Translations under genes and position numbers: made by a program | Shown: positions 46,106-63,878 of the stretch, in pieces | Position numbering within the stretch: the first letter of the stretch is position 1 | How the letters are laid out: each line of letters opens with the position of its first letter | The notes under the pieces: generated by a model | Seen by the model: the letters and a program-made list of their open reading frames with translations, nothing else | Told to the model about the DNA's origin: nothing | Databases searched by the model: none | Virus record (IMG/VR): IMGVR_UViG_3300017971_002536 | Coordinates: 1 to 64,000 of that record | Reading direction: 5' to 3' (one strand) | Source: a virus | DNA length: 64,000 nucleotides

Positions 46106-46134
46106 AATATACGAAATAAAAGCATTCTTGTCAA
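46106..46134 (-). promoter_or_regulatory. strong sigma-70 early promoter (copy 1 of 4)
   Basis: Minus strand: TTGACA (46129-46134), 17-base spacer ending in ATTTCG, then TATATT (46106-46111). The -35 is preceded by an A-rich run and CAG. Three other gaps nearby carry almost the same block, so this is a family of early promoters read by host RNA polymerase. Confidence 0.85.
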
Positions 46135-46151
46135 CTGTTTTTTTACTTTTT

Positions 46152-46355: not shown

Positions 46356-46573
46356 GATTCTCTCCTATCAATATTCCATACCAAACCGGATAAAGTGTTC
46401 GAAGAATCCCAATAATGAAATCCACCACCTTTAACCGTCCACCAGGGATAAGTCATACCGGGTTGTTTATTGATCCAATATTTCTTACCATTTAGATTAT
46501 ACTCATAACGACCACCGCGGTGGCGAATAAGTTCACCTTTGTATTCATAGTCACGAATATATTTTTTCATCAA
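46352..46573 (-). CDS. small protein of unknown function
   Basis: 73 residues, rich in Gly, Tyr, Trp and Arg (LIRHRGGRYEYNLNGKKYW), predicted small beta-sheet protein. Not recognised. A second ATG follows directly (46570). It is coupled by ATGA to both neighbours in the early unit. Confidence 0.55.
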   Translation of the reverse strand: MMKKYIRDYEYKGELIRHRGGRYEYNLNGKKYWINKQPGMTYPWWTVKGGGFHYWDSSNTLSGLVWNIDRRES

Positions 46574-46836
46574 CTGTACCTCGCTACTAATTTACCATTG
46601 TAATAAACTTCGCGGGTAAAAAGAATCGGTGTCCAACCCAATTCTTTGCGACGCGCGTCAGCGTGAGCAATCTTCCACGCTTTTGTGAAAAGAGTATTAG
46701 TAACAACTTCAAAGCCACTATTATACTTGTGACCACCTGGTGCAAAAGTATCAGCTTCTGCCCATTGAATCTTGACAGTCCAAGTACCACGAACTGAAAA
46801 CTTTACATCTTTACTTTTGAAATCGTAACGAAACAT
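46570..46836 (-). CDS. small protein of unknown function
   Basis: 88 residues, first gene of an early unit. Mixed aromatic and charged residues, no recognised motif; the segment KAWKIAHADARRKELGW looks helical and the flanks beta. It has an AAAGGAG ribosome site and lies about 40 bases after a strong promoter. Confidence 0.55.
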   Translation of the reverse strand: MFRYDFKSKDVKFSVRGTWTVKIQWAEADTFAPGGHKYNSGFEVVTNTLFTKAWKIAHADARRKELGWTPILFTREVYYNGKLVARYS

Positions 46837-46874
46837 TTTTAACTCCTTTAGTTGTTATCTCAATTAACTACTAT

Positions 46875-46903
46875 AATATACGAAATTCAGATGTATTTGT
46901 CAA
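46875..46903 (-). promoter_or_regulatory. strong sigma-70 early promoter (copy 2 of 4)
   Basis: Minus strand: TTGACA (46898-46903), 17-base spacer ending in ATTTCG, TATATT (46875-46880). It shares CAGTTGACAAATACAT with copy 3 at 48475. It serves the genes at 46836 and leftward. Confidence 0.85.
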
Positions 46904-46931
46904 CTGTTTTCTGGTTTTTCTGGTAAATTTT

Positions 46932-47324
46932 TTATAGGGAAAATCGTAAACTTACGGTGTAACCGCTTCGTTGTAACGTGTTGATGTTTAATATGACGGG
47001 CGTCCATGATATGATGTTATATACAATTAAAGCTAATCTTCGTTGTCCTACCGATGATGTAAAATTCTTTATTACCATTATTCCGAATGCAGATATGATC
47101 ACTTTCGTGGCGAATAACTGTGTCATACTGGGATGCGAGCCGTATAAAGGATTTACCTCTTTCATCCCATATGTATTTATCGCATGATTTGTTAAGCCGT
47201 AATCTAATACCTGCGCTATTACAAAAGTGGACGCTAACGTATAATCTACGGGCGTCCACTCCAATGAATCTTGACCAAAAATACAAATTGGTATCAATAA
47301 GAATATTATTAAACGGTGTGCCAT
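46932..47324 (-). CDS. membrane protein of unknown function with signal-like N-terminus
   Basis: 130 residues. A hydrophobic N-terminus (LIIFLLIPICIFG) is followed by two or three more hydrophobic segments, with an EVNPLYGSHPS loop that resembles small DUF-type inner-membrane proteins. Topology suggests insertion in the host membrane. It overlaps the nucleotidyltransferase gene by 16 bases. Confidence 0.6.
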   Translation of the reverse strand: MAHRLIIFLLIPICIFGQDSLEWTPVDYTLASTFVIAQVLDYGLTNHAINTYGMKEVNPLYGSHPSMTQLFATKVIISAFGIMVIKNFTSSVGQRRLALIVYNIISWTPVILNINTLQRSGYTVSLRFSL

Positions 47325-48265
47325 TCTCTAATCATCCTCTTTACTAATTCTTGTACTTCATTGTATCTCGGACGTTTCGGTAACGCGGTATACTCAACAG
47401 CATCATGAATCTTAGCTTCAAGTTCCTCAGCGTAATCCAAAACGTATTTCATTTCCCACTTTCCTAACTTCACATCCAAAATAGTTTGACGATAACGTAA
47501 AGGAAATTCGAGGCGTCCGGTGGACAATAATTCTTTTCCCTCTAACATCAATCGAACTAAATGTGATGCAAATTTAGTGTCATATCCATGAGAAGTTAAC
47601 AAATCTTTCCTATTGGTAGCTTTAGACAATCTTTCATCAATCATCTTCTTTACTTTCCTCAACATGAAATGTCTTTGGAAATTTAAGTCACCAATAAGAA
47701 TGTTGTCGCCTTTAACACTCATAAATGGAAGTTTCTTGTCAAGAATCTCAACTAACAATTTCTTTCCATCTTCAGGAGATTTAATAAATCCATACAACCA
47801 ATCTTGAGCATTCTCAAGGGAATGATAATTGTCAGTGCGAATCACCATCTTGTGTTTTTGACTAAAAGCATATCCAAGAAATTTTTCCTTTAATCCACGA
47901 TGCGGGAACAAATGAGCGTTCCTCAAAAGTTCCTTTCCCCAAAAGTTACTGTAAACTAAGTTTGCTTCGTTAACAAACATTTGTTCCAAAATATTCGGGT
48001 TATTATCCATCGCCAGACGAACAAACTTTCTCAACTCATAAATCACCATATCAACGGCGTTTTCGTCGTTCTTTCCATCGTCCTTTTTAGACTTGATACT
48101 CAAATCAACTTCGTCGGCACGTTCGAATCCAAATACCATGTCCTCACTCGGCATGAAAACTCCACTGTAATCAGTGTCACTGGTTGGAGTTGCAGTTCCA
48201 TACAACCTTGACCCAACCATATATTCTAAAATCTTATTTTCTTTCGCAACTTCTCTCGCGTTCAT
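47309..48265 (-). CDS. RlaP/YcgL-type nucleotidyltransferase
   Basis: 318 residues. VGSRLYGTATPTSDTDYSGVF near residue 17 is the GS...DxD metal-binding motif of DNA polymerase beta-superfamily nucleotidyltransferases, and the helical rest (LEQMFVNEANLVY, QDWLYGFIKSP) matches the RlaP family seen in many phages. The substrate (RNA end, nucleotide or protein) is unknown. It is coupled to a small upstream gene by ATGA. Confidence 0.85.
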   Translation of the reverse strand: MNAREVAKENKILEYMVGSRLYGTATPTSDTDYSGVFMPSEDMVFGFERADEVDLSIKSKKDDGKNDENAVDMVIYELRKFVRLAMDNNPNILEQMFVNEANLVYSNFWGKELLRNAHLFPHRGLKEKFLGYAFSQKHKMVIRTDNYHSLENAQDWLYGFIKSPEDGKKLLVEILDKKLPFMSVKGDNILIGDLNFQRHFMLRKVKKMIDERLSKATNRKDLLTSHGYDTKFASHLVRLMLEGKELLSTGRLEFPLRYRQTILDVKLGKWEMKYVLDYAEELEAKIHDAVEYTALPKRPRYNEVQELVKRMIREWHTV

Positions 48266-48450
48266 TTCTTTTCCTTATTCTTAAACTGAAAATGATATTC
48301 ATCTTCACCTTTATCAATCGTATCTATAATCCTTGATAAAAATTGAATGGGAGCAGTAGTTCCACCGGCCCAAGCAAGATTATAAACCGTTACTTCACTA
48401 CGAATATGTTGATATACATCGTCGTCAATTAATAAAGTAATTTTTTTCAA
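48262..48450 (-). CDS. small protein, possible ribbon-helix-helix regulator
   Basis: 62 residues starting at TTG, which has a GGAG site six bases upstream. ITLLIDDDVYQHIRSEV resembles the strand-helix start of ribbon-helix-helix proteins, but the second helix is unclear. It heads a unit with the nucleotidyltransferase, driven by the promoter at 48475. Confidence 0.5.
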   Translation of the reverse strand: MKKITLLIDDDVYQHIRSEVTVYNLAWAGGTTAPIQFLSRIIDTIDKGEDEYHFQFKNKEKK

Positions 48451-48474
48451 TTAAAACTCCATTTCTTTGATATA

Positions 48475-48503
48475 AAGTTACGAAATAAAAATGTATTTGT
48501 CAA
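48475..48503 (-). promoter_or_regulatory. sigma-70 early promoter (copy 3 of 4)
   Basis: Minus strand: TTGACA (48498-48503), 17-base spacer ending in ATTTCG, then TAACTT (48475-48480), a weaker -10 than the TATATT of the other copies. The upstream block CAGAAAACAGTTGACAAATA is nearly identical to copy 2. Confidence 0.75.
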
Positions 48504-48518
48504 CTGTTTTCTGATAAA

Positions 48519-48812
48519 TTATGAAGATAATGACGTTTTTTCAAATACTCTCCAATTATCACCATCAAAGATTGTTATAACATAATGATAATGTGGCGTT
48601 TTCTTCATATTACAATAACATTCATCCTGCCACTCCCGACCACCATTAATCTTTTTATATTCTAATGATAAGATTGTGTGAACTAAACCAAACGCACTTA
48701 TTGGATTTAAATGTTCAATAATTTCTGGCTCAAGATTTGTCCTACTCCTTATTAATTCTTTCGCCTTTTCATACTTTCTTTTTTCTTTTCCTAATACTTT
48801 TCTCACTACCAT
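48519..48812 (-). CDS. small protein of unknown function
   Basis: 97 residues, basic N-terminus and an ECYCNMKKTPHYHYV segment with two Cys and two His that could bind metal. No family recognised. It starts with a GGAG-type site and points away from the plus-strand lipoprotein gene, so the two are divergent. Confidence 0.55.
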   Translation of the reverse strand: MVVRKVLGKEKRKYEKAKELIRSRTNLEPEIIEHLNPISAFGLVHTILSLEYKKINGGREWQDECYCNMKKTPHYHYVITIFDGDNWRVFEKTSLSS

Positions 48813-48827
48813 ATCCCCTCCGAAAAG

Positions 48828-48856
48828 TTGGTATGATTTTTGTACAATTATATGGT
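48828..48856 (+). promoter_or_regulatory. candidate promoter for the lipoprotein gene
   Basis: TTGGTA (48828-48833), 17-base spacer, TATGGT (48851-48856) fit a moderate sigma-70 promoter facing right. A TATAAATA (48872-48879), the T4 late promoter core, also lies on the plus strand but directly abuts the AGGAG ribosome site (48879-48883), so a transcript from it would lack most of that site. Confidence 0.45.
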
Positions 48857-48892
48857 ATAAAAACCATTCAATATAAATAGGAGAATAAAAAA

Positions 48893-49585
48893 ATGAGTAT
48901 CAAACTATTGTTTCTTATTGTGATAAGTCTACTCTTATCCTCTTGTTACACACACTTTCGTTACGTCTATACCGAAGAACCTGTAGACGAAGTTTACATT
49001 TATGATGTCAACTATGTTTACACTAATCTTTGGTATGACGATTTCTACTGGCGTTACGATGTCTCTAATTACTATTGTACATTTGGTTTATATTATTATT
49101 CGCCAGGGTACTATGGCTACCCTTACCACTATAAATATAAACCATACTATTATCATAAACGCCCGTATTATAAACGCCATTGGAAAAAACGCCGTCATAA
49201 TGTTGATAAAAACCCACGTTATAGACCAAAACGACACTTATTGATGGGAAAAACCAACATTAAAAAATCTCAAAAAAATGTCCTGCTAAACCGTAAAAAA
49301 TTCAAAAAAAGAAAGGTAATAGGACAAAAATCGAGACAGAATGTCCAGATAAAAAATCGTATCACGACAAAATCTCGTCAAAATGTCGAAATACGTAAAA
49401 AACGACAAAATAAACGTAATTATCACGACACACAAAAACGTGTCCACCGAACACCCTCGTTCAAAAAACAAGTCCAAAAAACGAGAAAAAATACCCACGT
49501 TCAAAAACGTAATAATTCGGCTTTCAAATCAAAAATTAATAAAAAATCTCAAAGAGCAAATGTTAAAAGAAAAGGGCGAAAATAA
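48893..49585 (+). CDS. lipoprotein with Tyr-rich and Lys/Arg-rich regions (only plus-strand gene)
   Basis: 230 residues. A hydrophobic signal ends in LLSSC (Cys18), a type II lipobox. Residues 19-95 are extremely rich in tyrosine (many YY pairs), then the rest is dominated by Lys, Arg, Asn and Gln with recurring SRQNV and RQNK-like motifs. It should be anchored in the host outer or inner membrane, perhaps blocking re-infection or binding surface polymer; this is inference. It has a strong AGGAG site and ends at a bidirectional terminator. Everything around it runs the other way. Confidence 0.75.
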   Translation: MSIKLLFLIVISLLLSSCYTHFRYVYTEEPVDEVYIYDVNYVYTNLWYDDFYWRYDVSNYYCTFGLYYYSPGYYGYPYHYKYKPYYYHKRPYYKRHWKKRRHNVDKNPRYRPKRHLLMGKTNIKKSQKNVLLNRKKFKKRKVIGQKSRQNVQIKNRITTKSRQNVEIRKKRQNKRNYHDTQKRVHRTPSFKKQVQKTRKNTHVQKRNNSAFKSKINKKSQRANVKRKGRK

Positions 49586-49597
49586 TCGCCCTTTTTT
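49570..49597. terminator. bidirectional rho-independent terminator
   Basis: AAAAGGGCGA (49570-49579), a six-base loop, TCGCCCTTTT (49586-49595) and two more T's. The stem is flanked by A's on one side and T's on the other, so it can end both the rightward lipoprotein transcript and the leftward 49600-50499 transcript, which converge here. Confidence 0.85.
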
Positions 49598-49599
49598 AC

Positions 49600-50499
49600 T
49601 TATTTTTCTTTATTTTTCGCTAAATATTTCGGCGAATATCTAAGATAACATTGTGTCGCAGGCAAATCTACACTATAACCCTCACTATCTACTTTTATAA
49701 GTGCTGGTGTTTCTCTCGATGGATTTTTTGTCAATAAATCATTTATACGAGTAGAAATATGTGTCCATGGCTCAGCATCTGGTTCATATTCCATATGTTT
49801 TCTGTTGACTTCACTCAATAAATCTTTGTAGTGAATTTGTCCATATTCTTCAATGGTTTCTTTGATAAGAGAAACTTGAGAATACTCAGATTTATATGTA
49901 CTCGATCTTAATTCAGTTAAATCATTACTCTCAAACCAATTAAAAATACTAGCATTATTATCTAAATGTTTCATGAAAATTTCATGTAATTCTGGAAATG
50001 TAAAATAAAATGTAGAATATTCTTTTGCAACCACTAAGGCTTTTTCTTTTATAAAAAGTGTTCCGAGTTCTCCAAAATCCAAACGCTCTTTATAAACTTC
50101 TTTATCAAGAATACTTTTATATATAACAAGTTGTTCTTTATATAGATCACTACCTATTTTTACTTCTATATAAAAAATTCCATTACCATATTTTTTTGAC
50201 TTTATACGTAAAACAATATCAAGACGCCTATCATGTATTTCCTCTCCATCAGACGCATAAATAACTTCTTTTTTAGGTTCTTCTCTACTTACACTATATT
50301 CTATTTCATCATCCGAAAAATCATATTTTTTAGTCTTTTCACCTATTAGTGTAATTATTTCATCAGCAACCTTTGGATTATTATTAATATACAAACAAAC
50401 TCCACCAGTCACTTTAACCTCTTGACCACCACCAACTATATCTATCCAATATTTTTCTTGATCTTCCATCAGTGGATTTCTATTACAACGAATTTTCAT
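49600..50499 (-). CDS. predicted PD-(D/E)XK nuclease
   Basis: 299 residues. RRLDIVLRI followed by FYIEVKIGSDLYKEQLVIYK gives the D...ExK core and trailing Gln/Tyr of PD-(D/E)XK nucleases. The C-terminal third (HYKDLLSEVNRKH, HISTRINDLL) looks like a winged-helix DNA-binding domain. A restriction-like or defence-like DNase is likely; no partner methylase adjoins. It has its own early promoter (copy 4) and terminator. Confidence 0.65.
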   Translation of the reverse strand: MKIRCNRNPLMEDQEKYWIDIVGGGQEVKVTGGVCLYINNNPKVADEIITLIGEKTKKYDFSDDEIEYSVSREEPKKEVIYASDGEEIHDRRLDIVLRIKSKKYGNGIFYIEVKIGSDLYKEQLVIYKSILDKEVYKERLDFGELGTLFIKEKALVVAKEYSTFYFTFPELHEIFMKHLDNNASIFNWFESNDLTELRSSTYKSEYSQVSLIKETIEEYGQIHYKDLLSEVNRKHMEYEPDAEPWTHISTRINDLLTKNPSRETPALIKVDSEGYSVDLPATQCYLRYSPKYLAKNKEK

Positions 50500-50529
50500 T
50501 ATATAACCTTTCTTTATTTGTCTATTACT

Positions 50530-50558
50530 AATATACGAAATTTCAGAGTAAATGTCAA
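50530..50558 (-). promoter_or_regulatory. strong sigma-70 early promoter (copy 4 of 4)
   Basis: Minus strand: TTGACA (50553-50558), 17-base spacer ending in ATTTCG, TATATT (50530-50535), preceded by an A-run and CAG as in the other copies. It drives the nuclease gene at 49600-50499. Confidence 0.85.
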
Positions 50559-50570
50559 CTGTTTTTTTAA

Positions 50571-51266
50571 TTATTTTGACTTTAGAATAACTATAACTCG
50601 TCCAGTAGAACTTTCAATTATAACTACTTCATGAGTTTTCTCAAATTTTTTCTTCCAATCAATTAATACTTCAGTATGTCCAGGATCTGCTGCAAATGTT
50701 TCGTGTTTTGGAGTTGGATATGTGAACACACAATTTTTACATACTCTCATAATTTCATTAGCTGCTTGATCTTTTAGAGCCGGTGGAATGTGTTCGATTG
50801 TTTCAGTACACCAGCCCCAATCCCATTGATGATCTTCAAAATCTTTCATATCAGTTACATCCATAACATAATCAATTTTTGGACCTGGACGTAAATCTAA
50901 TGATTTATATATTTTTGTTCGTTTTCGTAAATTTCCTTTATACGGTACACTTAATCCAGCTCCAATATCAAGTATAGATTTAGCTTTTGTTTCTTCCGTC
51001 AAATGTATAGTTCTTATATAATCACGATTAAATTTATAATTACCATCTTCGCCAAAATATACAGGTGGAACATACCACAAATAATGACGTATCACTTCCT
51101 CGCCATTACGGTGATGATCAACTGCAGTTTCAGGAAAAATATATTCAAATGTTTCTTCCTCTTTTTTCGGCACGTACTTTAAACGTTGTCTTTTTGGTTC
51201 ATCAGCTACGTCTTCCGCAGCTTGACTATCAAAAAAATCATTCTTTTTCATTTTCAATCTGCCCAT
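50571..51266 (-). CDS. class I SAM-dependent methyltransferase
   Basis: 231 residues. SILDIGAGLSVPY is motif I, LDLRPGPKIDYVMDVTD follows with the acidic residue that binds the SAM ribose, and GWCTETIEHIPP is the post-motif strand of Methyltransf_11-like enzymes. The N-terminus (MKKNDFFDSQAAEDV) is an unstructured leader. No DNA-methylase catalytic motif (DPPY or PCQ) is visible, so a small molecule, protein or RNA target is more likely. Start supported by AAAGGAG seven bases upstream. Confidence 0.75.
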   Translation of the reverse strand: MGRLKMKKNDFFDSQAAEDVADEPKRQRLKYVPKKEEETFEYIFPETAVDHHRNGEEVIRHYLWYVPPVYFGEDGNYKFNRDYIRTIHLTEETKAKSILDIGAGLSVPYKGNLRKRTKIYKSLDLRPGPKIDYVMDVTDMKDFEDHQWDWGWCTETIEHIPPALKDQAANEIMRVCKNCVFTYPTPKHETFAADPGHTEVLIDWKKKFEKTHEVVIIESSTGRVIVILKSK

Positions 51267-51300
51267 GTAACAACTCCTTTATTTATCTTTTTAAATTATT

Positions 51301-51624
51301 TCAACATCCACCCTCAGGATACCTCTTTCCCTCTTTTATTACTCGTATCTCAGAAAGTTCAGGTTTTGGCGGTGGACCTGGACGCGAAGTAGGTACATTC
51401 GCTTTCCTTCGTCGTTCCCACTCCATAAAACCTTGTATTCCGGTTAACTTACTATCTCCACCACATTCTCTACATAAATAAAAATGACGATTGTATATAA
51501 GCGCCCAGTGGCCGCGTTCTCGGCGAAATTCTTCACCACATAAACAACACTTGTGCCATATAAATAATGGGAATATACGACCAATACAAGTTATTATTTG
51601 TGGTTTTTCTACTTGTCTTTTCAT
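51301..51624 (-). CDS. zinc-finger protein of unknown function
   Basis: 107 residues. CCLCGEEF near residue 26 and CRECGG near residue 51 form a four-cysteine finger around a basic, aromatic core; a Pro-rich tail follows. No enzyme motif. It is located just downstream of the gp41 helicase gene in transcription order. Confidence 0.6.
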   Translation of the reverse strand: MKRQVEKPQIITCIGRIFPLFIWHKCCLCGEEFRRERGHWALIYNRHFYLCRECGGDSKLTGIQGFMEWERRRKANVPTSRPGPPPKPELSEIRVIKEGKRYPEGGC

Positions 51625-51627
51625 AAC

Positions 51628-53022
51628 TTACCCCAATCCATCTACTTTCATTTCGTTTATCTTCTCGGCGAGTAACATCTTTTGAACCTTTTCGCCACTC
51701 TCCATTGATTTCTTTGTTTTCTTTCCCTCATCGGTCTTTTCATCAAAAATTTGTACCTTTCCATTCGACGCATCCATCTTTGACGGAAATACAAATCCAT
51801 CCGGACCAAACCTATTCTTTATTACGTGAATACGACCTGTGTGAGCAATCTTGTCTTTCGTCTTTCTTTGAAGTGATATAACAAAGTCGGCGATCATTAT
51901 CTTTCCAAAACTCTCACTTATTCGTCCCGCTTCAATGTGATCATCTTCAAGAGCAGACCTGTTAGCCTGTGACGCTGTCCATAATGGACATTCCATTTCA
52001 CCTGCTAAACCTCTTAGATTTTCAAATATACTATCCAACTCAAATCGTTTTTCTGTTGTCTTATATCCACTACTTGTATCTTTTAGTAAGTCGCCGTAAT
52101 CAACCACAATCATGTCAGGCTTAAATCCAAATCCCTCACATCGATTTAAATGTGATCTTAATGTTTCTATTCCTGCCGTCTTTGTTGGAAAATACTTTAC
52201 AATCAAGTTACCACGTAACTTTTCTATTTGTTTGTATACATCGTCTTGATGAAATTTTATGTCTTGTGACCCAAATCCCGTAATATTAGCATCATATCTC
52301 AAACCAACATAATCTTCATTTAACTCTAATGTATAATGTACTACATTCTTTCCTTTCGATACTGCGTACGCACCAATGGCGACCAATAACCACGATTTAC
52401 CTAATCCTGCTGGAGCAACCACGATTCCCATTTCTCCATTTCCAATACCACCATCAGTTATCTCGTTTAATATATCCCACGGTAATGGAATAACACTTCT
52501 CAATGTGTCAGTTACTCGTCGTTGAAAATATTCTTCCTCTTTGTATATTACACCTATATCTCTCGTTGTTCCTGCTTTCAAGGCTTGATCTATTACATTT
52601 CTCGCCTCTTCATATTTTTTAATGTTAACCAAATCAACGGCGTCAAATAATGCCAGTTTCATTGTTTGATCTTTAGCAAAATTTAAAAAATTCTCTTGTA
52701 CATAATCTAAGTCGGGTGATTCGAAATTCAAATATACATTCTTTAAATTCTCTATTATGGTTTTTTTCATCACCTCTGATGTTACTCTTTTTTCTAACTC
52801 AGTCTTAAAAACTTCCATTGTTGGCGGTTTTTTGTATTCACCAAAATACTCTTTTATGACCTTTACTAACCATTTATTAGCGTCTGAATCATAATATTTT
52901 TCTTCCACAATATCATTTATTTGTTCTAAAAATTTGGGATTTTTAACTAATGTAGTTATGGTTTTTGTTTGAAATGAAGTTCCAAATTGAGTTAGAGTAT
53001 CAAAATCTTTGTCCATAGGCAA
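51628..53022 (-). CDS. 41: replicative DNA helicase, gp41/DnaB-like
   Basis: 464 residues (T4 gp41 is 475). APAGLGKSWLL is Walker A, MIVVDYGDLL Walker B, and WTASQANRSA plus HVIKNRFGPDG the sensor and arginine-finger regions of hexameric DnaB-type helicases. It unwinds DNA 5' to 3' on the lagging strand. No primase gene is seen in the window. The first codon is TTG (53022, GGAG six bases upstream); the ATG at 53016 is an alternative two residues shorter. Confidence 0.93.
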   Translation of the reverse strand: MPMDKDFDTLTQFGTSFQTKTITTLVKNPKFLEQINDIVEEKYYDSDANKWLVKVIKEYFGEYKKPPTMEVFKTELEKRVTSEVMKKTIIENLKNVYLNFESPDLDYVQENFLNFAKDQTMKLALFDAVDLVNIKKYEEARNVIDQALKAGTTRDIGVIYKEEEYFQRRVTDTLRSVIPLPWDILNEITDGGIGNGEMGIVVAPAGLGKSWLLVAIGAYAVSKGKNVVHYTLELNEDYVGLRYDANITGFGSQDIKFHQDDVYKQIEKLRGNLIVKYFPTKTAGIETLRSHLNRCEGFGFKPDMIVVDYGDLLKDTSSGYKTTEKRFELDSIFENLRGLAGEMECPLWTASQANRSALEDDHIEAGRISESFGKIMIADFVISLQRKTKDKIAHTGRIHVIKNRFGPDGFVFPSKMDASNGKVQIFDEKTDEGKKTKKSMESGEKVQKMLLAEKINEMKVDGLG

Positions 53023-53025
53023 TCA

Positions 53026-54069
53026 CTACTCCTTTGAAGTTTTAGCAAATGTATTTAGTTTATTAAAATTCAGGTTCAACCATGAATCAATGTTTGGGAT
53101 GGCACTATAAAGTTTATCTTCCAAGAACAATCTTTTAAGTTGATACCTATTGATTGTACTAACAGGTTCGTCTAAAAGTTCCCTGATTTTAACTTTTGTT
53201 GTACCACTAATTTCTACTTCGCCTAACTTCATTAACTTAAAATTCATCTTTAGTTGTTCTTCGTTTTCCATGATTAATCGGGCGGCTGTGTTCTTTCCGG
53301 GTTGACGATTCGCATACTCCAAAATACTCTCCAATGAAACCTTTTCTTCGTCTAATAATATAGGTAAATGTTTTTGTGCTGTCTTTAATCCTATTCCCTT
53401 TATTCCTGGTATATTATCACTTGAGTCGCCATCTAAAATACGAAAATATATGAGATTCTTTGGCGAAAAATGATAATCTTCCTTGACTGCCTTTTCGTCG
53501 TATAACTTCTTTTTTGTTGGATTCCATACCTTTATCCTATCATCGACAAGTTGTAAAAAATCCTTGTCCGTTGACATTATTACTACTTCCTCTTTCAATA
53601 ACTCCTTTGATACATACGAAATAACATCGTCAGCTTCTATGTTATCATAAATAAACATTTGTAAAGGTAAGTTGTCTAAATAATCTGCTGACCTACTTAT
53701 TTGTCTACTCGCTTCGTCAACTTCCTCATCGGGTGTGTGAAAATCGTATGTACGATTTAACCTTACTCGTAAACCTGTTCTATGTGCTTTGTAGTCGGGA
53801 TAAATTTTTCGACGGCGAGCTGATCCGCCTTTTCCATCAAATACCACGATACAACGTGTAGGATTTATCGTGCGGATACCAACTGCTATTGTGTTCAGGA
53901 AGCCGACAATACCACCTATATGTGTACCATCGTCATTCATTGCGGGATTTACCGAAAACGCTCTAATGAAATTATTTAAACCATCGATTAATAAAACTTT
54001 TGAGTTGAGTGATTTGGCGTTTTCGTTTTCTTGTTTAATTTCTTCTAATAGATTATCGATATTAACCAT
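53026..54069 (-). CDS. rnh: 5'-3' exonuclease, T4 RNase H/FEN-like
   Basis: 347 residues (T4 RNase H is 305). VLLIDGLNNFIRAF, VFDGKGGSARRR, NIEADDVI, STDKDFLQL and GDSSDNIPGIKGIG are the ordered acidic metal-binding motifs of flap endonucleases, the last being the helix-hairpin-helix DNA grip. It removes RNA primers and adjacent DNA from Okazaki fragments. It lies next to gp41 and gp32, its functional partners in T4. Confidence 0.93.
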   Translation of the reverse strand: MVNIDNLLEEIKQENENAKSLNSKVLLIDGLNNFIRAFSVNPAMNDDGTHIGGIVGFLNTIAVGIRTINPTRCIVVFDGKGGSARRRKIYPDYKAHRTGLRVRLNRTYDFHTPDEEVDEASRQISRSADYLDNLPLQMFIYDNIEADDVISYVSKELLKEEVVIMSTDKDFLQLVDDRIKVWNPTKKKLYDEKAVKEDYHFSPKNLIYFRILDGDSSDNIPGIKGIGLKTAQKHLPILLDEEKVSLESILEYANRQPGKNTAARLIMENEEQLKMNFKLMKLGEVEISGTTKVKIRELLDEPVSTINRYQLKRLFLEDKLYSAIPNIDSWLNLNFNKLNTFAKTSKE

Positions 54070-54085
54070 TTTATTATGTCCTTTA

Positions 54086-54685
54086 TTAGAGTAAAAGTTT
54101 TTTCAAATTTTTATTAAAATGATTGATCAACTTTAAAGAATTTGTCGTATCTCTCCACATAAAATAATGTTCTTCACATCCAGCATACCATTGTGTTATT
54201 TCTTTTACTCTACATGGATCACGGGTAATATTACCAATAAAAACTGTCCAAAATGGTAAAACATCATTTCCAAGATTACCCTCACTTTTTAATATTTTTA
54301 ATAATCCAGGTGTAAAATATTTACATGATCTTTCGTGAGCATTTCCACGACCATCTTGGCGTTTTCCGCCCTCAACCCAACCATCTTGTCGTTTTACTTC
54401 CACATAAATTGTTTTTTGAGTTTGAGTATTATCAATAGCGTAATCTGGCACGATTCCATGTGTCTCAATCTTTTCTTCTGGAATATAAATTTCTTCTAAT
54501 ACCTTTTTATCAAGTTCTACATCAACATAAATATTCGTGAATTCTTGCGGACTTTCTCGTATCACAAATTTTGTGTTTTTAAATTCTTGTAAAAAAACAT
54601 TATAAAAATCGTGTTCAGCTATTTTTGCTTTTTTTCCACTATTTTTTTGCCAAGTAGATCTGTTTTTTAATTCTTTTGAGCCCAC
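54086..54685 (-). CDS. MunI-like type II restriction endonuclease
   Basis: 199 residues (MunI is 202). From memory of MunI the resemblance is end to end: the MG.(S/K)EL start, the VPDYAI segment with catalytic Asp81, Glu96 and Lys98 in VEVKRQDGWVEG, then GRGNAHERSCK and FTPGLLK. The PD-X14-EXK spacing equals MunI's D83/E98/K100. MunI cuts C^AATTG. GTG start with AAGG five bases upstream. No MunI methylase is found nearby; it stands between RNase H and a Vsr-like gene. Confidence 0.88.
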   Translation of the reverse strand: MGSKELKNRSTWQKNSGKKAKIAEHDFYNVFLQEFKNTKFVIRESPQEFTNIYVDVELDKKVLEEIYIPEEKIETHGIVPDYAIDNTQTQKTIYVEVKRQDGWVEGGKRQDGRGNAHERSCKYFTPGLLKILKSEGNLGNDVLPFWTVFIGNITRDPCRVKEITQWYAGCEEHYFMWRDTTNSLKLINHFNKNLKKLLL

Positions 54686-54695
54686 AAAAACCTTT

Positions 54696-55100
54696 CTAAG
54701 TTGTTTTGTATTTACTCACTATCTTTTGTAAGAAACGAGTTCTGTCGGATAATCTTTTCCAATCATATTCCCAAATAACTTCAATATTGTAACCATTTTC
54801 TTCAGCAGATTTGATTTTCTCTTTATCCTTTTCCCATTTTTCCCAAGCATACCTTTTCTTTACCTTGTCATAAAAATCAGGTGGATAAATGTTTTTGTTG
54901 TAGTGCCACCGATCTCCATTATACTCAATGATTAAATTTAATTCCTTTATGAATATATCATATGGAACGCCATCAAGCATAAATTCATTACGAACCTTAC
55001 AGCCGAGTTTTCGAAGTGTCTTAAACACTTCACTGTGACCCTGACTCATTGTCGTTGACCGTCGAACTTTTCTCTTTTTACCACGTTTCTTCTTTTTCAA
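54696..55100 (-). CDS. Vsr-like (EDxHD) endonuclease, possible homing endonuclease
   Basis: 134 residues from a TTG at 55100, or 117 from the ATG at 55049. LDGVPYDIFI and IIEYNGDRWHYN match the catalytic region of Vsr-like nucleases, and GYNIEVIWEYDW the final strand. Vsr nicks T:G mismatches; related EDxHD homing endonucleases include I-Bth0305I, found in a phage recA gene. This gene lies directly downstream of uvsX, the phage recA, so a free-standing homing nuclease is plausible. The basic N-terminus (KKKKRGKKRKVRR) could bind DNA. Confidence 0.75.
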   Translation of the reverse strand: MKKKKRGKKRKVRRSTTMSQGHSEVFKTLRKLGCKVRNEFMLDGVPYDIFIKELNLIIEYNGDRWHYNKNIYPPDFYDKVKKRYAWEKWEKDKEKIKSAEENGYNIEVIWEYDWKRLSDRTRFLQKIVSKYKTT

Positions 55101-55102
55101 TA

Positions 55103-55161
55103 TGAATAATCCCGATATGAGTTCTACTATATATAAATAGTGTTCAAATCGGGATTATTCA
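55103..55161. repeat. 14-bp perfect inverted repeat between uvsX and the Vsr-like gene
   Basis: TGAATAATCCCGAT (55103-55116) and its exact complement ATCGGGATTATTCA (55148-55161) flank a 31-base loop. The loop itself holds a smaller hairpin (ACTAT...ATAGT) around TATAAATA (55132-55139). On the minus transcript it falls after the uvsX stop and just before the next start codon. No T-run follows, so it is not an ordinary terminator. Confidence 0.85.
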
Positions 55162-55173
55162 CGTTTCTGTTAA

Positions 55174-56316
55174 TTAATCGTCACCAATTATTTCATCAGT
55201 GACTATCATTTCATCCGTACTTAACCCTATGTCCGACTTATCTTTATACTTCATTATTTGAAAATCACAAATCTTGTTGTATAAAAATTCTTTGAATTCG
55301 GGCTCACTTTCAAGTAATTCGCCCCAATTCTTCGTCTCAAATCGTCTTTCCTCTCCCTTGTGATCAACTATTTTAAATCCAGGGTTGGAACGGGAAACTA
55401 AATCATTGTCTTTTAAAATCTCTAACCAATTTTCATAGTCATATATACCCCTGTCAAAATAAATGTCAAAGTCGGCGATCCGGTAGGACGGCCCCATTCG
55501 ATTCTTGATTACTTGAGCTCTCGCTTTGATGCCAATTACTTGTTCTTGTGTTCCTATCTTTTGTTTGATTTGACCCATCGCTTTTAACCGGACACGGATA
55601 GAAGCATGAAACGGCAAACCCTTTCCACCTGAAGTAGTCCAGGGATCACCAAACATTACGCCCATCTTCTGGCGTAACTGATTCGTAAAAATACACACAA
55701 CTCTCTCTTTACCTATCAATCGTGTAATCTTACGAAATGCTGCGGAAACAATTATCGCTTTAGTAGTATTCCAACCCTGCTTCTCATAATCGTTCTCCAT
55801 TTCTAATGAAGTTGAAGCAGCTGCTAATGAATCAACTACAATCACTACAAGTTTGTCCTTGTCGGATTCCCTAATAGTTGTAATTATTTGTTCAATAGTT
55901 TGAAATATTTGTTCCACAGTATCAAGTTGGACATATAACATCTTTTCAACATCTACACCAATCGCTTCTAAAAAATCTTTACTTAAAGCATTTTCAGTGT
56001 CAATATAAACACCTACTCCACCTTTCGCCTGAGCACTCGCTATTGAGTGAGCAGCAAGTAATGACTTTCCACTCGATTCTAAACCATTAAATTCTATTAT
56101 ACGTCCTGTGGGAAGTCCACCATGCGGGCGGTTAGATATTGCTAAATCTAACATCGAACTTCCGGTTGAAATCCAATCAATCACATCAGTTGGTGTATCA
56201 TCACCAATAAAATGGGCTACCTTTCCATCACTTTTGAATTGTTTGTTCAACACATCCGCTAATGAGTGTACAAGATCGCCCTTTAATTCTTCCTTTTCAG
56301 CTTTCTTTTTCGCCAT
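55174..56316 (-). CDS. uvsX: UvsX recombinase (RecA-like)
   Basis: 380 residues (T4 UvsX is 391). GLESSGKS (residues 78-85) is Walker A, VVIVVDSLAA Walker B, and TNQLRQKMGV with TSGGKGLPFHASI form the DNA-binding loop regions. It coats single-stranded DNA and drives strand exchange for recombination-dependent replication. It is downstream of gp32, with a terminator and a GGAGAGG ribosome site in the 48-base gap. Confidence 0.95.
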   Translation of the reverse strand: MAKKKAEKEELKGDLVHSLADVLNKQFKSDGKVAHFIGDDTPTDVIDWISTGSSMLDLAISNRPHGGLPTGRIIEFNGLESSGKSLLAAHSIASAQAKGGVGVYIDTENALSKDFLEAIGVDVEKMLYVQLDTVEQIFQTIEQIITTIRESDKDKLVVIVVDSLAAASTSLEMENDYEKQGWNTTKAIIVSAAFRKITRLIGKERVVCIFTNQLRQKMGVMFGDPWTTSGGKGLPFHASIRVRLKAMGQIKQKIGTQEQVIGIKARAQVIKNRMGPSYRIADFDIYFDRGIYDYENWLEILKDNDLVSRSNPGFKIVDHKGEERRFETKNWGELLESEPEFKEFLYNKICDFQIMKYKDKSDIGLSTDEMIVTDEIIGDD

Positions 56317-56332
56317 TTATCCTCTCCAAAAT

Positions 56333-56358
56333 AAAAAATCGGGGAATAAATCCCCGAT
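56333..56358 (-). terminator. rho-independent terminator after gene 32
   Basis: Minus strand: ATCGGGG (56352-56358 complement), seven-base loop, CCCCGAT (56338-56344) and a run of T's to 56333. It lies seven bases after the gp32 stop and would end or attenuate the gp32 transcript before uvsX, as expected for a single-gene high-level gp32 message. Confidence 0.85.
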
Positions 56359-56364
56359 CATATA

Positions 56365-57165
56365 TTAATTTTCGAACATCTTTTTGAATGCGTCTGCAGG
56401 ATTTGCAGCAGGTTTTTCAGCAGTTACTTCCTCTTTTGTTTCCGCAACAGGAGCATCTTGAGTTGTCGTTTCAGTTGTCGTTTCAGTTGTAGTTTCCTTT
56501 TGTTCTTCCGCTGCTTCTTCAGGATTCAAATGTAGTTTCAACGCTTCTTCAAGTTCTTCATATGATTTAAGTTCATACAATTCCTTGATGTCAGGTTGTT
56601 CTTCCGTGATTTTCTTCAATACATCAGGATCTTCCGTGACAGTACTTGGATTTGGTTTAATCCGAACTTTCGGCGTGGCGAATTGTTTACCTTCCTCTTT
56701 CACCGTCCATACAACAATATCACGTCCATTTACAGGATCAGTAATATCACCGTAATCAGGATCAGAGATATGGGAAAGTAAATCTTCATACACAGTTTTA
56801 CCGAATCCCCAAAACTTTACACCTTCATGTTCCTTATCACGAACAATAACAGGAGCAAATGTACGAAGTTTAGGCTCTAAAGAACGTCCAAGTTTCCAAC
56901 TTTCTTTACTACCCTCTTGTTTAAGTTTTTGGGCGATTTCCATAATCGGATCGCGTTCACCAAATGAAGCTGGAGATAAATAAGTTTTATTATTTAACTC
57001 GTAATGAAAATACAATTCGATGAAAGGATTTTCAGGATTGAATTTGTAAGGTACGATACGAACCGTTGTTTCTTTCTCAGAAGGTTTCCAAGTAAGATTT
57101 GATTTTTTGTTGGTTTTCTTTAAGGATTCCAACCGTCCTTTGATTTGTGCTAAGTCTAATGCCAT
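56365..57165 (-). CDS. 32: single-stranded DNA-binding protein, gp32-like
   Basis: 266 residues (T4 gp32 is 301). The basic N-terminus, VRIVPYKFNPENPFIELYFHY and the conserved FGERDPI segment fit the marine T4-like gp32 group; the zinc-binding cysteines of T4 gp32 are absent. The C-terminus is acidic with three ETTT repeats and ends DAFKKMFEN, the protein-interaction tail. It coats replication intermediates and recruits partners. A leader hairpin, middle promoter and strong terminator surround it. Confidence 0.92.
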   Translation of the reverse strand: MALDLAQIKGRLESLKKTNKKSNLTWKPSEKETTVRIVPYKFNPENPFIELYFHYELNNKTYLSPASFGERDPIMEIAQKLKQEGSKESWKLGRSLEPKLRTFAPVIVRDKEHEGVKFWGFGKTVYEDLLSHISDPDYGDITDPVNGRDIVVWTVKEEGKQFATPKVRIKPNPSTVTEDPDVLKKITEEQPDIKELYELKSYEELEEALKLHLNPEEAAEEQKETTTETTTETTTQDAPVAETKEEVTAEKPAANPADAFKKMFEN

Positions 57166-57211
57166 GATTCATTCTCCTTCTTTAATCATTGATGTTTAAA
57201 AGTTTAAATTA

Positions 57212-57231
57212 CTCAAGCTACACCGCTTGAG
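57212..57231 (-). promoter_or_regulatory. hairpin in the gp32 mRNA leader, possible autoregulatory operator
   Basis: CTCAAGC (57212-57218) pairs perfectly with GCTTGAG (57225-57231) around a six-base loop, about 50 bases before the gp32 start codon; the sequence between hairpin and ribosome site is almost purely A+T. In T4 and relatives gp32 represses its own translation by binding a structured leader followed by an unstructured A/U stretch. The arrangement here fits, although I did not find a pseudoknot partner. Confidence 0.5.
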
Positions 57232-57257
57232 ATAACCATTTGTTAAGTTGTATAAAT

Positions 57258-57286
57258 ATTATACTCTTATAAATATGTAAAGTTCC
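57258..57286 (-). promoter_or_regulatory. candidate middle-type promoter for gene 32
   Basis: Minus strand: GGAACTTT (57279-57286), 15 bases, then TATAAT (57258-57263), identical in box and spacing to the element upstream of nrdJ. Placed about 95 bases before the gp32 start, giving a leader that contains the hairpin at 57212-57231. Confidence 0.5.
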
Positions 57287-57333
57287 ATTATTTTTGAACT
57301 TTTTTCTTGACTTTTTCACTTTTTTTTCGTAAA

Positions 57334-57630
57334 TTACGGCCAATCAATCCTCATTTCGTTGACCTTTGTATTTACTTCGCCAATAGGTTTTTCCTTTGGT
57401 ACTAAATCATAATGTTTTAACATGATCCTCAATACCATCATAGCTATCTCTCTGTCCTTGTCCTTTTCTTCCTCGTCTAACTCACCATAAGGCTTAAACA
57501 TATCCTCTTTCCATCGTTTTAACCTCTCAGGATTTATTGTCTCAGTTTTCGCTATGTCTTTCGCCCATGACATCCATTGCGCATGTTCTAAATCAGATAA
57601 TTCCTCTAATACTTTTTTCTTAATCTTCAT
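57334..57630 (-). CDS. conserved phage protein, unknown function
   Basis: 98 residues. LEHAQWMSWAKDIA followed by PERLKRWKEDMFKPYGEL and KDKDREIAMMVLRI forms a recurrent small helical domain that I associate with many phage and bacterial proteins of unknown function. It overlaps the next gene by one base. Confidence 0.65.
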   Translation of the reverse strand: MKIKKKVLEELSDLEHAQWMSWAKDIAKTETINPERLKRWKEDMFKPYGELDEEEKDKDREIAMMVLRIMLKHYDLVPKEKPIGEVNTKVNEMRIDWP

Positions 57631-58022
57631 TATACGTCTCTTATATCAAAAATTTTAGTTTGTATTTTCTTTAATCCATTTTCATCAGTTACTAATAATG
57701 TGTTTCTAAACTTTGACCAATCTACCTCAAATCTCGGATCAACCTTTCCATCATTTAATAAACTTACTACATGATTTAACGCATTTATAGTGTATAATGT
57801 GTTTGTTTGTTTCTTACGATGTATTGAAATTGTACTTCTTAGGGCTTCGCCAGATGGATCAAACTCTACATTATATGTACATATCAACTCTCGTTTGTTA
57901 TCCAAGTTTTCTAATACATATATCCTACCAAAGGCGATTGTATATGTGTCCAAAATTTCTTCAATCGTTTCTTCTAATTTGTTCTTCCGTGTAAACGTAC
58001 ACAACAGTTGTGTTTTACTCAT
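57630..58022 (-). CDS. protein of unknown function
   Basis: 130 residues, alternating strands and helices, beginning TQLLCTFTRKNKLEE and containing IYVLENLDNKRELICTYNVE. No recognised family. It is two bases from the large upstream gene and one base overlapped by the downstream gene, so it belongs to the same operon. Confidence 0.6.
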   Translation of the reverse strand: MSKTQLLCTFTRKNKLEETIEEILDTYTIAFGRIYVLENLDNKRELICTYNVEFDPSGEALRSTISIHRKKQTNTLYTINALNHVVSLLNDGKVDPRFEVDWSKFRNTLLVTDENGLKKIQTKIFDIRDV

Positions 58023-58024
58023 AA

Positions 58025-59863
58025 CTATTTCTCCTTGTTTTTCCGTACTCGATGTCTAAATAATAATTTAGGTGTACTTTTCGTCTCCGTTTTTAAATCT
58101 ATTTGTATATATTGATTCTTTTGACCATCGATTTCAATAATTAACTTTGTACCATCAACATTTACTTTTAATGGTTGTTGTGGTTCACAATAATGTTCAG
58201 GTGGATATAAATCTACTTGAGCTGTCTTTTTATTTATTACACTTGTATGTACATCGTTACCACAACCGTGTACTTCTTTCCAAATGTTTTCAAGTTGATC
58301 TTGACCCTCAGGTGTCTTGGCGAGTTGTTCTAATGATTCTCCCATTTTTTTGGTATACCAAGTTTTTAACTTAGCTTTCCTTTTCATAATCTCTTGAGCA
58401 TCCATCGTGTCTACATCCCACTTGTTTTCTTTCCATACTTTCGCCCAATCTTCGTCAAGTTTCTTTCCTGCTTCACCACCAATATAATGTGACCCTGCAT
58501 TTCCCGTTCCCGAATTTTTCATTGTTATATTCGATGGATCGGTATAAATCTTAGCAGATATTTTCATCATTTTATCTTTTCCATCTTTATCTTTATACAT
58601 AACAACTAAATCCGTCGGATCAACTTTTTCATCAATACCGTATAAATCCATAAGTTTTTTTGCACCAATACCACCAGTATTTCTAGCATCAGTTATTGTA
58701 GCTCCTTCAGGAAGTGATCCACGAATTTTATCGGCTAACTCTTTGTTTGTCTCATTTGACGCTTTAAGATTTCCACCAAGTTTTTTATATTCTTCAGTAT
58801 TATGATCATGTAATTCTTTAGCTTCTTTATAGTTTTGTGAATCTTCAGGTATCAAATCCAACACTACTCCAGATTCATTATATTTTCCGGACATATCAGC
58901 TAATGCTCTATCTGCAGACGAACCACGAATCGGCACCGATATTCCCTCTTTTTTTATCATTTCGTTCATTAATCTTGTTACTACAGTTCCACTATCTCCG
59001 GTCATAGCTTTATAATGAACACCATATTCAGGACCCGCTTGTGGAGTTAAATAAATCTTTTTACCACCAGCATGACCTTCAATAATAATGTAATCGGCTA
59101 ATCTATTAAGATTTTCTACTCTTTCTTCGTATGTCTTAGCATTTATAAATCCATCCCATGAGTTAGAAAGAATGTCTATCCTTTTCTTTGTTTCCGGGTC
59201 AGCATCTTTTGTTTTGTCTCTTATCTTATCGAGTTTCGCCTTTTCTTTTTCATAAGCCTTACCCTTGATCACGGGCTCAACTGGAGTTCCCTTTGGTTCT
59301 TCCTCTTTTTCTACGGGCTCGCCCTTTTCGGCTTTGGCGATGTCCTCCGGTGACGCGTCCTTTTTGACTAAAACCTGACCGCGTTTTGGATCGTGTGACT
59401 TAACCGTGTAAATGTTTCCTGTCTCTTTCTTCTTTACTATGTCATCCTCGTTTATCTCGTCCTCGTCCTCGGTGTCCACATCTAAATAATCTAACTCTAA
59501 CATTATTTCTTCGGTGTAAGGTGTGTCTCGTTCTTCCTCGTCTCTATCATCCATTGGTAACTTGTCTTGATCCGCATGATCTTGTGGTTGTATTGGATTG
59601 ATATAAGGTTGCGGTTCTGCTTGATCGGAATGAACGCCATCAAAATCTGTATAAATACCAACTTGATCTATTTTATTTGGATTCTTTTTCACAGGGATTC
59701 TGAGATTGTTCATTGTCTTTTCTATTAATTCATATGACATCCCTTTTTCTTCAAAAATCTCTCGTAATATTATTAAATGATCGTTGTTTTTCAAATCAGG
59801 CAAACCATTTGATACTCGATATGATAATTCTTTAATAACTTCCTCTATAAACTCTTTGTTCAT
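58025..59863 (-). CDS. large conserved phage protein of unknown function
   Basis: 612 residues: a helical N-terminus, an acidic linker (residues 80-150 rich in Asp/Glu), a charged coiled segment, then a folded C-terminal half with LADYIIIEGHAGGKKIYLTP, GISVPIRGSSADRALADMSG and VHGCGNDVHTSVINK. No named enzyme family is recognised. Its position beside tail genes and its ATGGAGAAAAC ribosome site suggest a late-expressed protein, perhaps virion-associated. A nuclease-like function cannot be excluded. Confidence 0.65.
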   Translation of the reverse strand: MNKEFIEEVIKELSYRVSNGLPDLKNNDHLIILREIFEEKGMSYELIEKTMNNLRIPVKKNPNKIDQVGIYTDFDGVHSDQAEPQPYINPIQPQDHADQDKLPMDDRDEEERDTPYTEEIMLELDYLDVDTEDEDEINEDDIVKKKETGNIYTVKSHDPKRGQVLVKKDASPEDIAKAEKGEPVEKEEEPKGTPVEPVIKGKAYEKEKAKLDKIRDKTKDADPETKKRIDILSNSWDGFINAKTYEERVENLNRLADYIIIEGHAGGKKIYLTPQAGPEYGVHYKAMTGDSGTVVTRLMNEMIKKEGISVPIRGSSADRALADMSGKYNESGVVLDLIPEDSQNYKEAKELHDHNTEEYKKLGGNLKASNETNKELADKIRGSLPEGATITDARNTGGIGAKKLMDLYGIDEKVDPTDLVVMYKDKDGKDKMMKISAKIYTDPSNITMKNSGTGNAGSHYIGGEAGKKLDEDWAKVWKENKWDVDTMDAQEIMKRKAKLKTWYTKKMGESLEQLAKTPEGQDQLENIWKEVHGCGNDVHTSVINKKTAQVDLYPPEHYCEPQQPLKVNVDGTKLIIEIDGQKNQYIQIDLKTETKSTPKLLFRHRVRKNKEK

Positions 59864-59882
59864 ATGTTTTCTCCATTACATT

Positions 59883-59912
59883 ATTATCCATATATAAATA
59901 TAAGTATGTCTA
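59883..59912 (-). promoter_or_regulatory. weak candidate promoter before the 612-residue gene
   Basis: Minus strand: TAGACA (59907-59912), 18-base spacer, GATAAT (59883-59888). It fits sigma-70 loosely. A plus-strand TATAAATA (59893-59900) lies inside the spacer, so an alternative late element may be used instead. Confidence 0.3.
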
Positions 59913-59918
59913 ATATTT

Positions 59919-61268
59919 CTATTCCGAATTGAATGTTTTTGTTATATCTTGTAAGTCTTGATAATCATATCCAAAATAAGCTTTTGTTGGAAATACTTTT
60001 AATATATCTCGTAATCCATTTATCATTTCTTTTCCATCTTCTTGACTTATGTCAAATAAAAAAGAATCATATACATACATCACTAACTTTGATTTATAGT
60101 TTTTCAAATACTCATTTATCTTTTGAATTAAAATCATATTGGCTTCCGTTTCCATACATTGAATAAAATAGTTGAATATTTTTGTGGGGCTCGGATCAAC
60201 AATATGTTTCAAATATATTCTTCTTTGAGATAATGGAGTTTCATAATATCCATCTTTTTTTATTTGTCGCCAAATACCAAAATAAAAATCCTGTACCTTG
60301 GCGAAAAATGGAACAGCTTCCCTGACTTCCTTTGGTACTCCACCATATAAAAGTTGAAAATTCATCGTCTTAGAATCATTGTATTCTTCCTCAGTTAATT
60401 CCTCTTTTCCAAAATAATATCGACCTAAATATGTGTGTATATTCTTTTCGCCAAACTCGTAGCCGATTAACCTGGCGATAAGATTCAAATGATATGAATC
60501 AAAATCAAATAATAAAAAGGCGTCATTGGTTGGAATGAATGACTTTCTATGTCCTTTATCCTTGTCTATGGCAGCAAAATTCAACCCACCATACTTATTC
60601 GATGGGCGACCGGTAGATGTGTAAAAGTTGTACTCACTATATATCTTGTTGTCACTCGATATGTACTTTTTTATTTTTTCGCCGTAATACTTCTCTAATG
60701 TGTCCACATTTACACCTATTCCATTCCTCTCTACATCATACATCGTTTCTAAATTCTTCGTGTAAAAATCATATCCACTTGGAATTAAATGATTCATTCT
60801 TATAGAAATAATTTTTCCGGCATTATCTTGATGTAATTCAACGTGTTTTGGTAATGGAATGTAACTATTTATATTTTGTTCGTGACTATATTTTCTGTTG
60901 TAATAAAGGTGTGTCTGAGTGTCCAGATTCCACACGGGCGTATTGTTATGATACAGATAGTAAAACATATCCATATCTTTTATGTCCTTGTTTTTTATAA
61001 AACTTAGAAGTCGTTTTTGGTTGATAGTCCATATTATGCTTGGTTGAATCTCGTCTAATATCGATATATCCATATTAACGGTGTCGGTGTGATTAAATCC
61101 AATAACATATTCGTCGCCAGAATCAACTACCCTAACATAAATCAATGATAATTCATTGTCACAATAATGTTTTGTTGGATTTACTAAAGTAGGTAAAATA
61201 ACTATTTCTTTGTTCTCGATTACCGATAAAAATACCTTGTAATCGTCCATTGTTTCTATAATATTCAT
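59919..61268 (-). CDS. family A-like DNA polymerase (second polymerase)
   Basis: 449 residues with a PolA-type palm: TSTGRPSNKYGGLN, motif A LLFDFDSYHLNLIARL (Asp255), motif B SKTMNFQLLYGG (Lys300, Tyr308) and motif C MYVYDSFLFD (Asp401). Compared with E. coli Pol I the two metal-binding aspartates and the motif B lysine are kept, but His260 replaces Glu710, Tyr296 replaces Arg754 and YDS replaces HDE. No 5' nuclease motif and no clear proofreading DxE motif are seen. It may be a repair, gap-filling or specialised polymerase beside the main gp43 replicase. Confidence 0.8.
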   Translation of the reverse strand: MNIIETMDDYKVFLSVIENKEIVILPTLVNPTKHYCDNELSLIYVRVVDSGDEYVIGFNHTDTVNMDISILDEIQPSIIWTINQKRLLSFIKNKDIKDMDMFYYLYHNNTPVWNLDTQTHLYYNRKYSHEQNINSYIPLPKHVELHQDNAGKIISIRMNHLIPSGYDFYTKNLETMYDVERNGIGVNVDTLEKYYGEKIKKYISSDNKIYSEYNFYTSTGRPSNKYGGLNFAAIDKDKGHRKSFIPTNDAFLLFDFDSYHLNLIARLIGYEFGEKNIHTYLGRYYFGKEELTEEEYNDSKTMNFQLLYGGVPKEVREAVPFFAKVQDFYFGIWRQIKKDGYYETPLSQRRIYLKHIVDPSPTKIFNYFIQCMETEANMILIQKINEYLKNYKSKLVMYVYDSFLFDISQEDGKEMINGLRDILKVFPTKAYFGYDYQDLQDITKTFNSE

Positions 61269-61288
61269 TCATAACCTTTGGTAAGATG

Positions 61289-61663
61289 TTAACCTTGCCA
61301 GAATTGTAATAAATTTCCCAAATACAACGAAATTCCTGGCATATTTTTTTCTTGAAAAATAAGTGTATTACTATTTTTACGCTGTATTTCGTCAAAAGTT
61401 CCATTAATTACCCAGCGTAACCGAATCGCTGAGTAATAACTTGACGCGGATGTAGGAAATATACCTGTTAACTTCAAATACTCGTCCTTGTCTATCTCTA
61501 TAATTTGAGCTTTTTCATTTACTCGTGGCTTGGCGAAATATCGTTCAATATATCCAATACGATAATCTTCAGCATCAGGTTGTGGAAGATGTTGTTTTGG
61601 ATATTTGCGTATTGTCGCTGATTCGCCGGACGCTCTACTATATTCTTTACGTAATTGGTTCAT
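61289..61663 (-). CDS. putative baseplate/tail-associated structural protein
   Basis: About 124 residues starting MNQLRKEYSRASG. IGYIERYFAKPRVNEKAQIIEI followed by YYSAIRLRWVINGTF and MPGISLYLGNLLQFW is a pattern I associate with small virion proteins of marine T4-like phages; identity is tentative. The start at 61663 is preferred (GAGG 12 bases upstream); a longer frame to 61750 would read through 30 more residues inside the upstream gene. It overlaps that gene by 17 bases. Confidence 0.6.
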   Translation of the reverse strand: MNQLRKEYSRASGESATIRKYPKQHLPQPDAEDYRIGYIERYFAKPRVNEKAQIIEIDKDEYLKLTGIFPTSASSYYSAIRLRWVINGTFDEIQRKNSNTLIFQEKNMPGISLYLGNLLQFWQG

Positions 61664-63875: not shown

Positions 63876-63878
63876 TTA

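Follow-up and report, generated by a model that had tools for sequence, protein, structure and literature searches.

A MunI-family restriction endonuclease gene without a companion methylase in a large phage record devoid of CAATTG

Results

The endonuclease gene and its neighbours

The DNA analysed here, called the window, is a stretch of 64,000 nucleotides within a virus record of 168,383 bp (G000). It carries an endonuclease gene of the MunI family and lacks the sequence CAATTG of the MunI restriction-modification system. The features on which the analysis rests are the following:

53026..54069, minus strand: 5'-3' exonuclease/RNase H-like gene, the downstream neighbour (Pfam 5_3_exonuc_N, 1.7e-35)
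54086..54685, minus strand: MunI-family Type II restriction endonuclease, 199 aa, intact, GTG start, methylase not adjacent
54696..55100, minus strand: Vsr-like/MTES_1575 small nuclease, the upstream neighbour (MTES_1575 4.8e-6; Vsr 7e-4; homing-endonuclease PHROG 1.1e-9)
55174..56316, minus strand: UvsX (RecA-like), the first conserved gene upstream of the Vsr-like gene
1..64000, no strand: absence of CAATTG, with none in the window and none in the whole 168,383-bp record

The terminase and the major head protein of the record match phage families, and inspection by eye or homology picked out sheath, portal, polymerase, helicase and UvsX; from its sequence we read the phage as T4-like. The record has no end repeats and is not certified complete. 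Terminase comparison places Microcystis phage Mel-JY01 (52%) closest among cultured phages, together with the Flavobacterium immuto phages (48.6%), and a guess at the host phylum, based on the latter phages and on the relatives of the MunI protein, would be Bacteroidota. Contigs G001 and G003 were at first taken for a second strain (98.4%), a reading rejected when no mismatch was found over 161,378 aligned bases. They represent a repeat assembly of one phage: the sequence is thereby confirmed, but no independent observation is gained, and, being identical, the contigs provide no test of ongoing selection.

The first-pass annotation of this DNA had proposed, from the letters alone, a MunI-like enzyme with a PD...ExK triad at Asp81, Glu96 and Lys98, and this is confirmed. 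The protein matches the Pfam family RestrictionMunI (PF11407) with E 2.1e-71 over profile positions 6-191 of 193, the MunI chain of PDB entry 1d02 with E 7e-62 over its full length (residues 1-198), and the PADLOC REase_II model for Type II enzymes at 2.4e-64. In the alignment it is about 51% identical to MunI over the full length, its GTG start lines up with Met1 of MunI, and Asp81, Glu96 and Lys98 correspond to MunI positions 83, 98 and 100 with the same PD...ExK spacing. These three residues are also invariant across seven relatives. The 1d02 chain has alanine at position 83, where the phage protein has the catalytic Asp81; we take this chain to be the crystallised inactive MunI mutant D83A. 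Furthermore, the segment GRGNAHERSCK, presumably the one that reads the recognition site, is identical in the two proteins, and a ribosome-binding-like stretch, AGAAAGG, lies upstream of the open reading frame. A Foldseek search with the predicted structure also returned 1d02 as the top match (2.8e-18), which would add little to the sequence evidence given the low confidence of the model (pLDDT 57). On these resemblances the phage protein would be expected to cleave DNA at CAATTG.

Besides the RestrictionMunI and Type II REase models, the protein matched no homing-endonuclease family and no PHROG, and MunI is absent among the 38,880 PHROG phage families. The third-position GC content (GC3) of the gene is 0.17, against 0.26-0.33 in its neighbours; two other accessory ORFs are likewise low.

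Search for a methylase and survey of MunI homologues

The first-pass annotation saw no adenine methylase for CAATTG in the window, an observation that can now be extended to the rest of the record. A tblastn search of the 168,383 bp with ten cognate methylases found no MT-A70 methylase (the best alignment covered 42 residues, E 0.011), and the adenine-methylase motif [DNS]PP[YFW] occurs in none of the predicted proteins. The sole methyltransferase nearby (50571-51266) matches Methyltransf_11 weakly and does not contain the motif. The 16-bp gap between the MunI gene and the 5'-3' exonuclease/RNase H-like gene holds neither a methylase nor a remnant of one.

Elsewhere the two genes are usually neighbours: an MT-A70-type methylase adjoins the MunI gene in 11 of the 12 distinct bacterial homologues and in three viral ones (L008, L208 and L209). 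The only bacterial copy with no methylase (L231/L233) was set aside as a pseudogene, with in-frame stops and the catalytic Glu lost. We also discarded MT836404.1 (H1/L232), a sequence labelled as phage that carries a partial MunI, since by our own reading its other ORFs look bacterial (one is butyrate-kinase-like). Homologues paired with a methylase were found in Bacteroidota in 4 of 396 sampled genomes, the seed genome included. The bacterial genomes that carry MunI homologues contain 39-817 CAATTG each, so that in a host without methylation the chromosome would suffer many cuts.

Phages that carry both MunI and the methylase keep the site, with 7 CAATTG in 30 kb (13.2 expected) in G025, 7 in 15 kb (7.8 expected) in G036 and 14 in 26 kb (12.5 expected) in G037. 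A 20,618-bp fragment, G035 (L223-L224), which looks like a T4-like phage, has a MunI homologue with no methylase within the fragment and 2 CAATTG where 6.5 are expected; it is possibly an exception to site absence, or else its methylase lies elsewhere or the fragment is incomplete. The tree of MunI copies may be reconciled with a single origin or with separate origins of the viral copies.

A second large phage with MunI and no methylase, G038 (IMGVR_UViG_3300050821_001527, L212-L222; 202,882 bp, 49% GC), is unrelated to the focal phage. It encodes a terminase, DnaB, the alpha subunit of DNA polymerase III, RNR, ligase and thymidylate synthase, and its intact MunI copy (Pfam 2.6e-61) adjoins the thymidylate synthase gene and a DHFR-like ORF. 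CAATTG is absent from this genome as well (47 expected), but the palindromic hexamers missing from it number 45 out of 64, many words of the CCWGG and GGWCC types are missing too, GATC does not occur and GTAC occurs once. This is an extreme and very broad purging of restriction sites, and for that reason the lack of CAATTG in G038 says little for an effect specific to the enzyme.

CAATTG in the focal record and in its relatives

The window had been described, by eye, as lacking CAATTG where about nine would be expected; an exact count gives none, and the Markov expectation, 11.1, is close to that estimate. Two further comparisons proposed in the first-pass annotation, a count over the larger genome against a Markov expectation and a count in related phages without the gene, both came out in favour of avoidance. 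The whole record contains no CAATTG where maximal-order Markov statistics predict 30.3, a first-order expectation is 84, and shuffling of synonymous codons in 155 ORFs gives 66 +/- 7; under all three null models (30-84 expected) the absence is beyond chance. Related phages, which were found through the UvsX gene, keep the site. Five sister contigs (66 kb, 82-85% protein identity) hold 15 CAATTG against 18.6 expected, about one per 4 kb, and the sister L020 (UvsX 85%), which has no MunI gene, has 4 in an 11.4-kb contig. Nine occur in the 6.4 kb of the related contig L103/G007 (terminase 67%), which shares its metagenome number with G001 and G003. In 154 more distant loci (1.53 Mb) there is no avoidance, with 900 CAATTG and 811 expected.

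Among the 64 palindromic hexamers, the loss with the highest significance in comparison with the relatives is that of CAATTG; GATATC and ACATGT come next. None of eight sister CAATTG positions is kept in the focal phage, where palindromes overall are conserved at 21%; taken alone, this is a weak sign of CAATTG loss. Only a single lineage within this phage group carries MunI, and the correlation between gene and missing site thus rests on one event.

CAATTG is not the only word missing from the record, a point that the first-pass annotation had overlooked. GATATC (46 expected), ACATGT (33), GGTACC (22) and GTCGAC (8) are all absent, and GGATCC (4 against 37) and CTAG (9 against 234) nearly so. 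Some of the other absent palindromes are scarce in the relatives too, and the median palindrome stands at 0.41 of its codon-shuffle expectation. No enzyme that would explain the loss of GATATC, ACATGT, GGTACC, GTCGAC, GGATCC or CTAG was identified in the focal phage. Strong depletion on both strands also affects the non-palindromic words GAGGAG, GATGAG, GAGATG and GAAGAG.

The ORF at 45061-45675 on the minus strand was considered as a second restriction enzyme, for GATATC or ACATGT, and was not retained: it gave no convincing family match, and its structural model (pLDDT 35) was unusable. It is an ORFan with very low GC3 and a D...QxK-like nuclease pattern (GFDIYTNLKYKKIQSK), and no homologue was found beyond the focal phage. 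From that pattern it is a possible candidate for a second solitary restriction enzyme.

Probable gain of the gene

In the sister L020 the gene order SSB-UvsX-Vsr-RNaseH-DnaB is the focal order minus MunI, and the Vsr-like ORF runs into the RNase H gene. By this synteny the Vsr-like gene and the 5'-3' exonuclease/RNase H-like gene mark the two edges of the MunI insertion. The arrangement fits the entry of MunI by itself between the Vsr-like and RNase H genes; a loss of MunI from L020 would be the less economical alternative. At the UvsX locus of more distant relatives MunI is missing, and no Vsr-like gene can be detected either. The Vsr-like nuclease, present in L020 and undetected in those relatives, is probably itself mobile. 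Another probable recent acquisition is the gene at 49600-50499 (minus strand), which has low GC3 and encodes a weakly PDDEXK_4 nuclease-like protein.

Discussion

The accepted view of Type II restriction enzymes is that they defend bacteria and depend on a partner methylase. The gene described here belongs to the same endonuclease family as MunI, with about half of the residues identical and the same catalytic and recognition segments, but it is encoded by a phage, lacks the MT-A70 methylase of nearly all homologues, and its genome is apparently protected by the absence of the site. This self-protection is well supported by an intact member of the family, no methylase, no site in 168 kb, and sites in the control genomes.

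The mechanism that we propose is that the solitary endonuclease cuts CAATTG and that a methylase is needless in a genome free of this sequence. The enzyme, made from the replication gene cluster, would attack any DNA with unmethylated CAATTG in the cell, be it the chromosome of the host or the DNA of a related phage that co-infects it. As to history, CAATTG would have been lost, probably at least in part under host restriction, before or together with the gain of the endonuclease gene without its partner, since at the site density of the sisters a gene arriving alone would have meant about 40 cuts in the phage's own genome. We think it fairly likely that the solitary MunI enzyme is aimed as a weapon at the DNA of host and competitors, and is tolerated in a genome purged of its site; its expression and its targets, host DNA and rival phages, are here inferred.

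The strongest competing explanation is that host pressure alone, from hosts with MunI-type systems, purged CAATTG, and that the gene is a passenger from such a host which contributes little. At least four other palindromes are missing with no matching enzyme identified, some of them scarce in the relatives as well, which means that host restriction may also have purged CAATTG. MunI homologues with their methylase do exist in Bacteroidota (the 4 genomes of 396 mentioned above), and depletion of restriction sites is a known means of evasion in virulent phages (PMC12707154). On the other hand, the sole recognisable Type II enzyme of known specificity in this phage matches the most lineage-specifically lost palindrome of 64, a match that would be accidental unless the gene derives from the same host system; moreover, the sisters retain CAATTG and the MunI ORF is intact. 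We regard host pressure alone as the less likely account, but as a serious rival. The first-pass annotation had attributed the missing sites to avoidance that protects the phage from its own enzyme, and had itself named pressure from a host MunI-type system as an alternative. The protection stands, since the site is kept both in sisters and in methylase-paired phages; the enzyme is only a possible cause of the loss, given the four other absent palindromes. The two accounts can be combined: host pressure would strip the sites, and the purged phage could then afford the enzyme.

It is improbable that the phage protein is inactive or has another specificity and that the missing CAATTG is unrelated to it. 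Its identity to MunI is only about 51%, and the bacterial copy with no methylase has decayed; against this, the triad and GRGNAHERSCK are as in MunI (bar Ala83 of 1d02), the ORF is intact, and it is preceded by a ribosome-binding-like stretch. Even less probable is that the enzyme belongs to an ordinary restriction-modification system of which we see one half, the methylase being encoded in missing phage DNA or supplied by the host. The record, having no end repeats, may be incomplete, and 14 homologous loci have an adjacent methylase. However, the methylase is adjacent wherever it is present, and the MunI gene of the focal phage is flanked by other phage genes on either side; methylation would also make the total loss of sites needless, and methylase-paired phages keep them. 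Chance or base composition, in an AT-rich genome that avoids palindromes generally, has a negligible probability, being contradicted by the counts (none where 30-84 are expected) and by the lack of avoidance in relatives of similar composition (900 against 811).

Our reading of the solitary enzyme as a weapon has partial parallels. T4 degrades host DNA with EndoII and EndoIV and spares its own DNA by base modification. The likeness lies in nucleases of a T4-like phage acting on host DNA while the phage DNA is spared; unlike T4, the focal phage would be spared by an absent recognition sequence. Chloroviruses (PBCV-1, NY-2A) also encode Type II enzymes, for which a role in breaking down host DNA at an early stage of infection is proposed (PMC7019647); their companion methylases lie in adjacent genes, their DNA is protected by methylation and their hosts are algae, in all of which they differ from the focal phage. 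The homing endonuclease gp210 of phage PhiPA3 damages the co-infecting relative PhiKZ, while its own genome lacks the target, and gives an advantage in co-infection (PMC11620839). The proposed role of the phage MunI is similar in that a nuclease spares its own target-less genome, but gp210 is an HNH intron endonuclease with one long target instead of many short sites. In the open-licence papers searched, no earlier case came up of a phage Type II enzyme that has no methylase and sits in a genome lacking its site.

If correct, this would be a restriction enzyme turned viral weapon, in a virulent phage with the cutter and with neither methylase nor sites, and it would link phage site avoidance to gene acquisition. 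Only tentatively do we extend it to a general proposal, from at least two unrelated large phages, that methylase-free Type II enzymes serve phages as weapons against host or competitor DNA, with the purged genome as immunity and host pressure as pre-adaptation. A solitary endonuclease with zero sites is a simple genomic signature by which all phage genomes can be surveyed.

Other genes of the window

Two further observations concern genes away from the MunI locus. The ORF at 47309-48265 (minus strand) encodes an RlaP-type nucleotidyltransferase of an RNA repair pathway (Pfam 5e-21). By eye, positions 1458-26000 (minus strand) hold a long run of nucleotide-sugar and glycosyltransferase-like genes, which perhaps serve to modify the host surface or the glycans of the virion.
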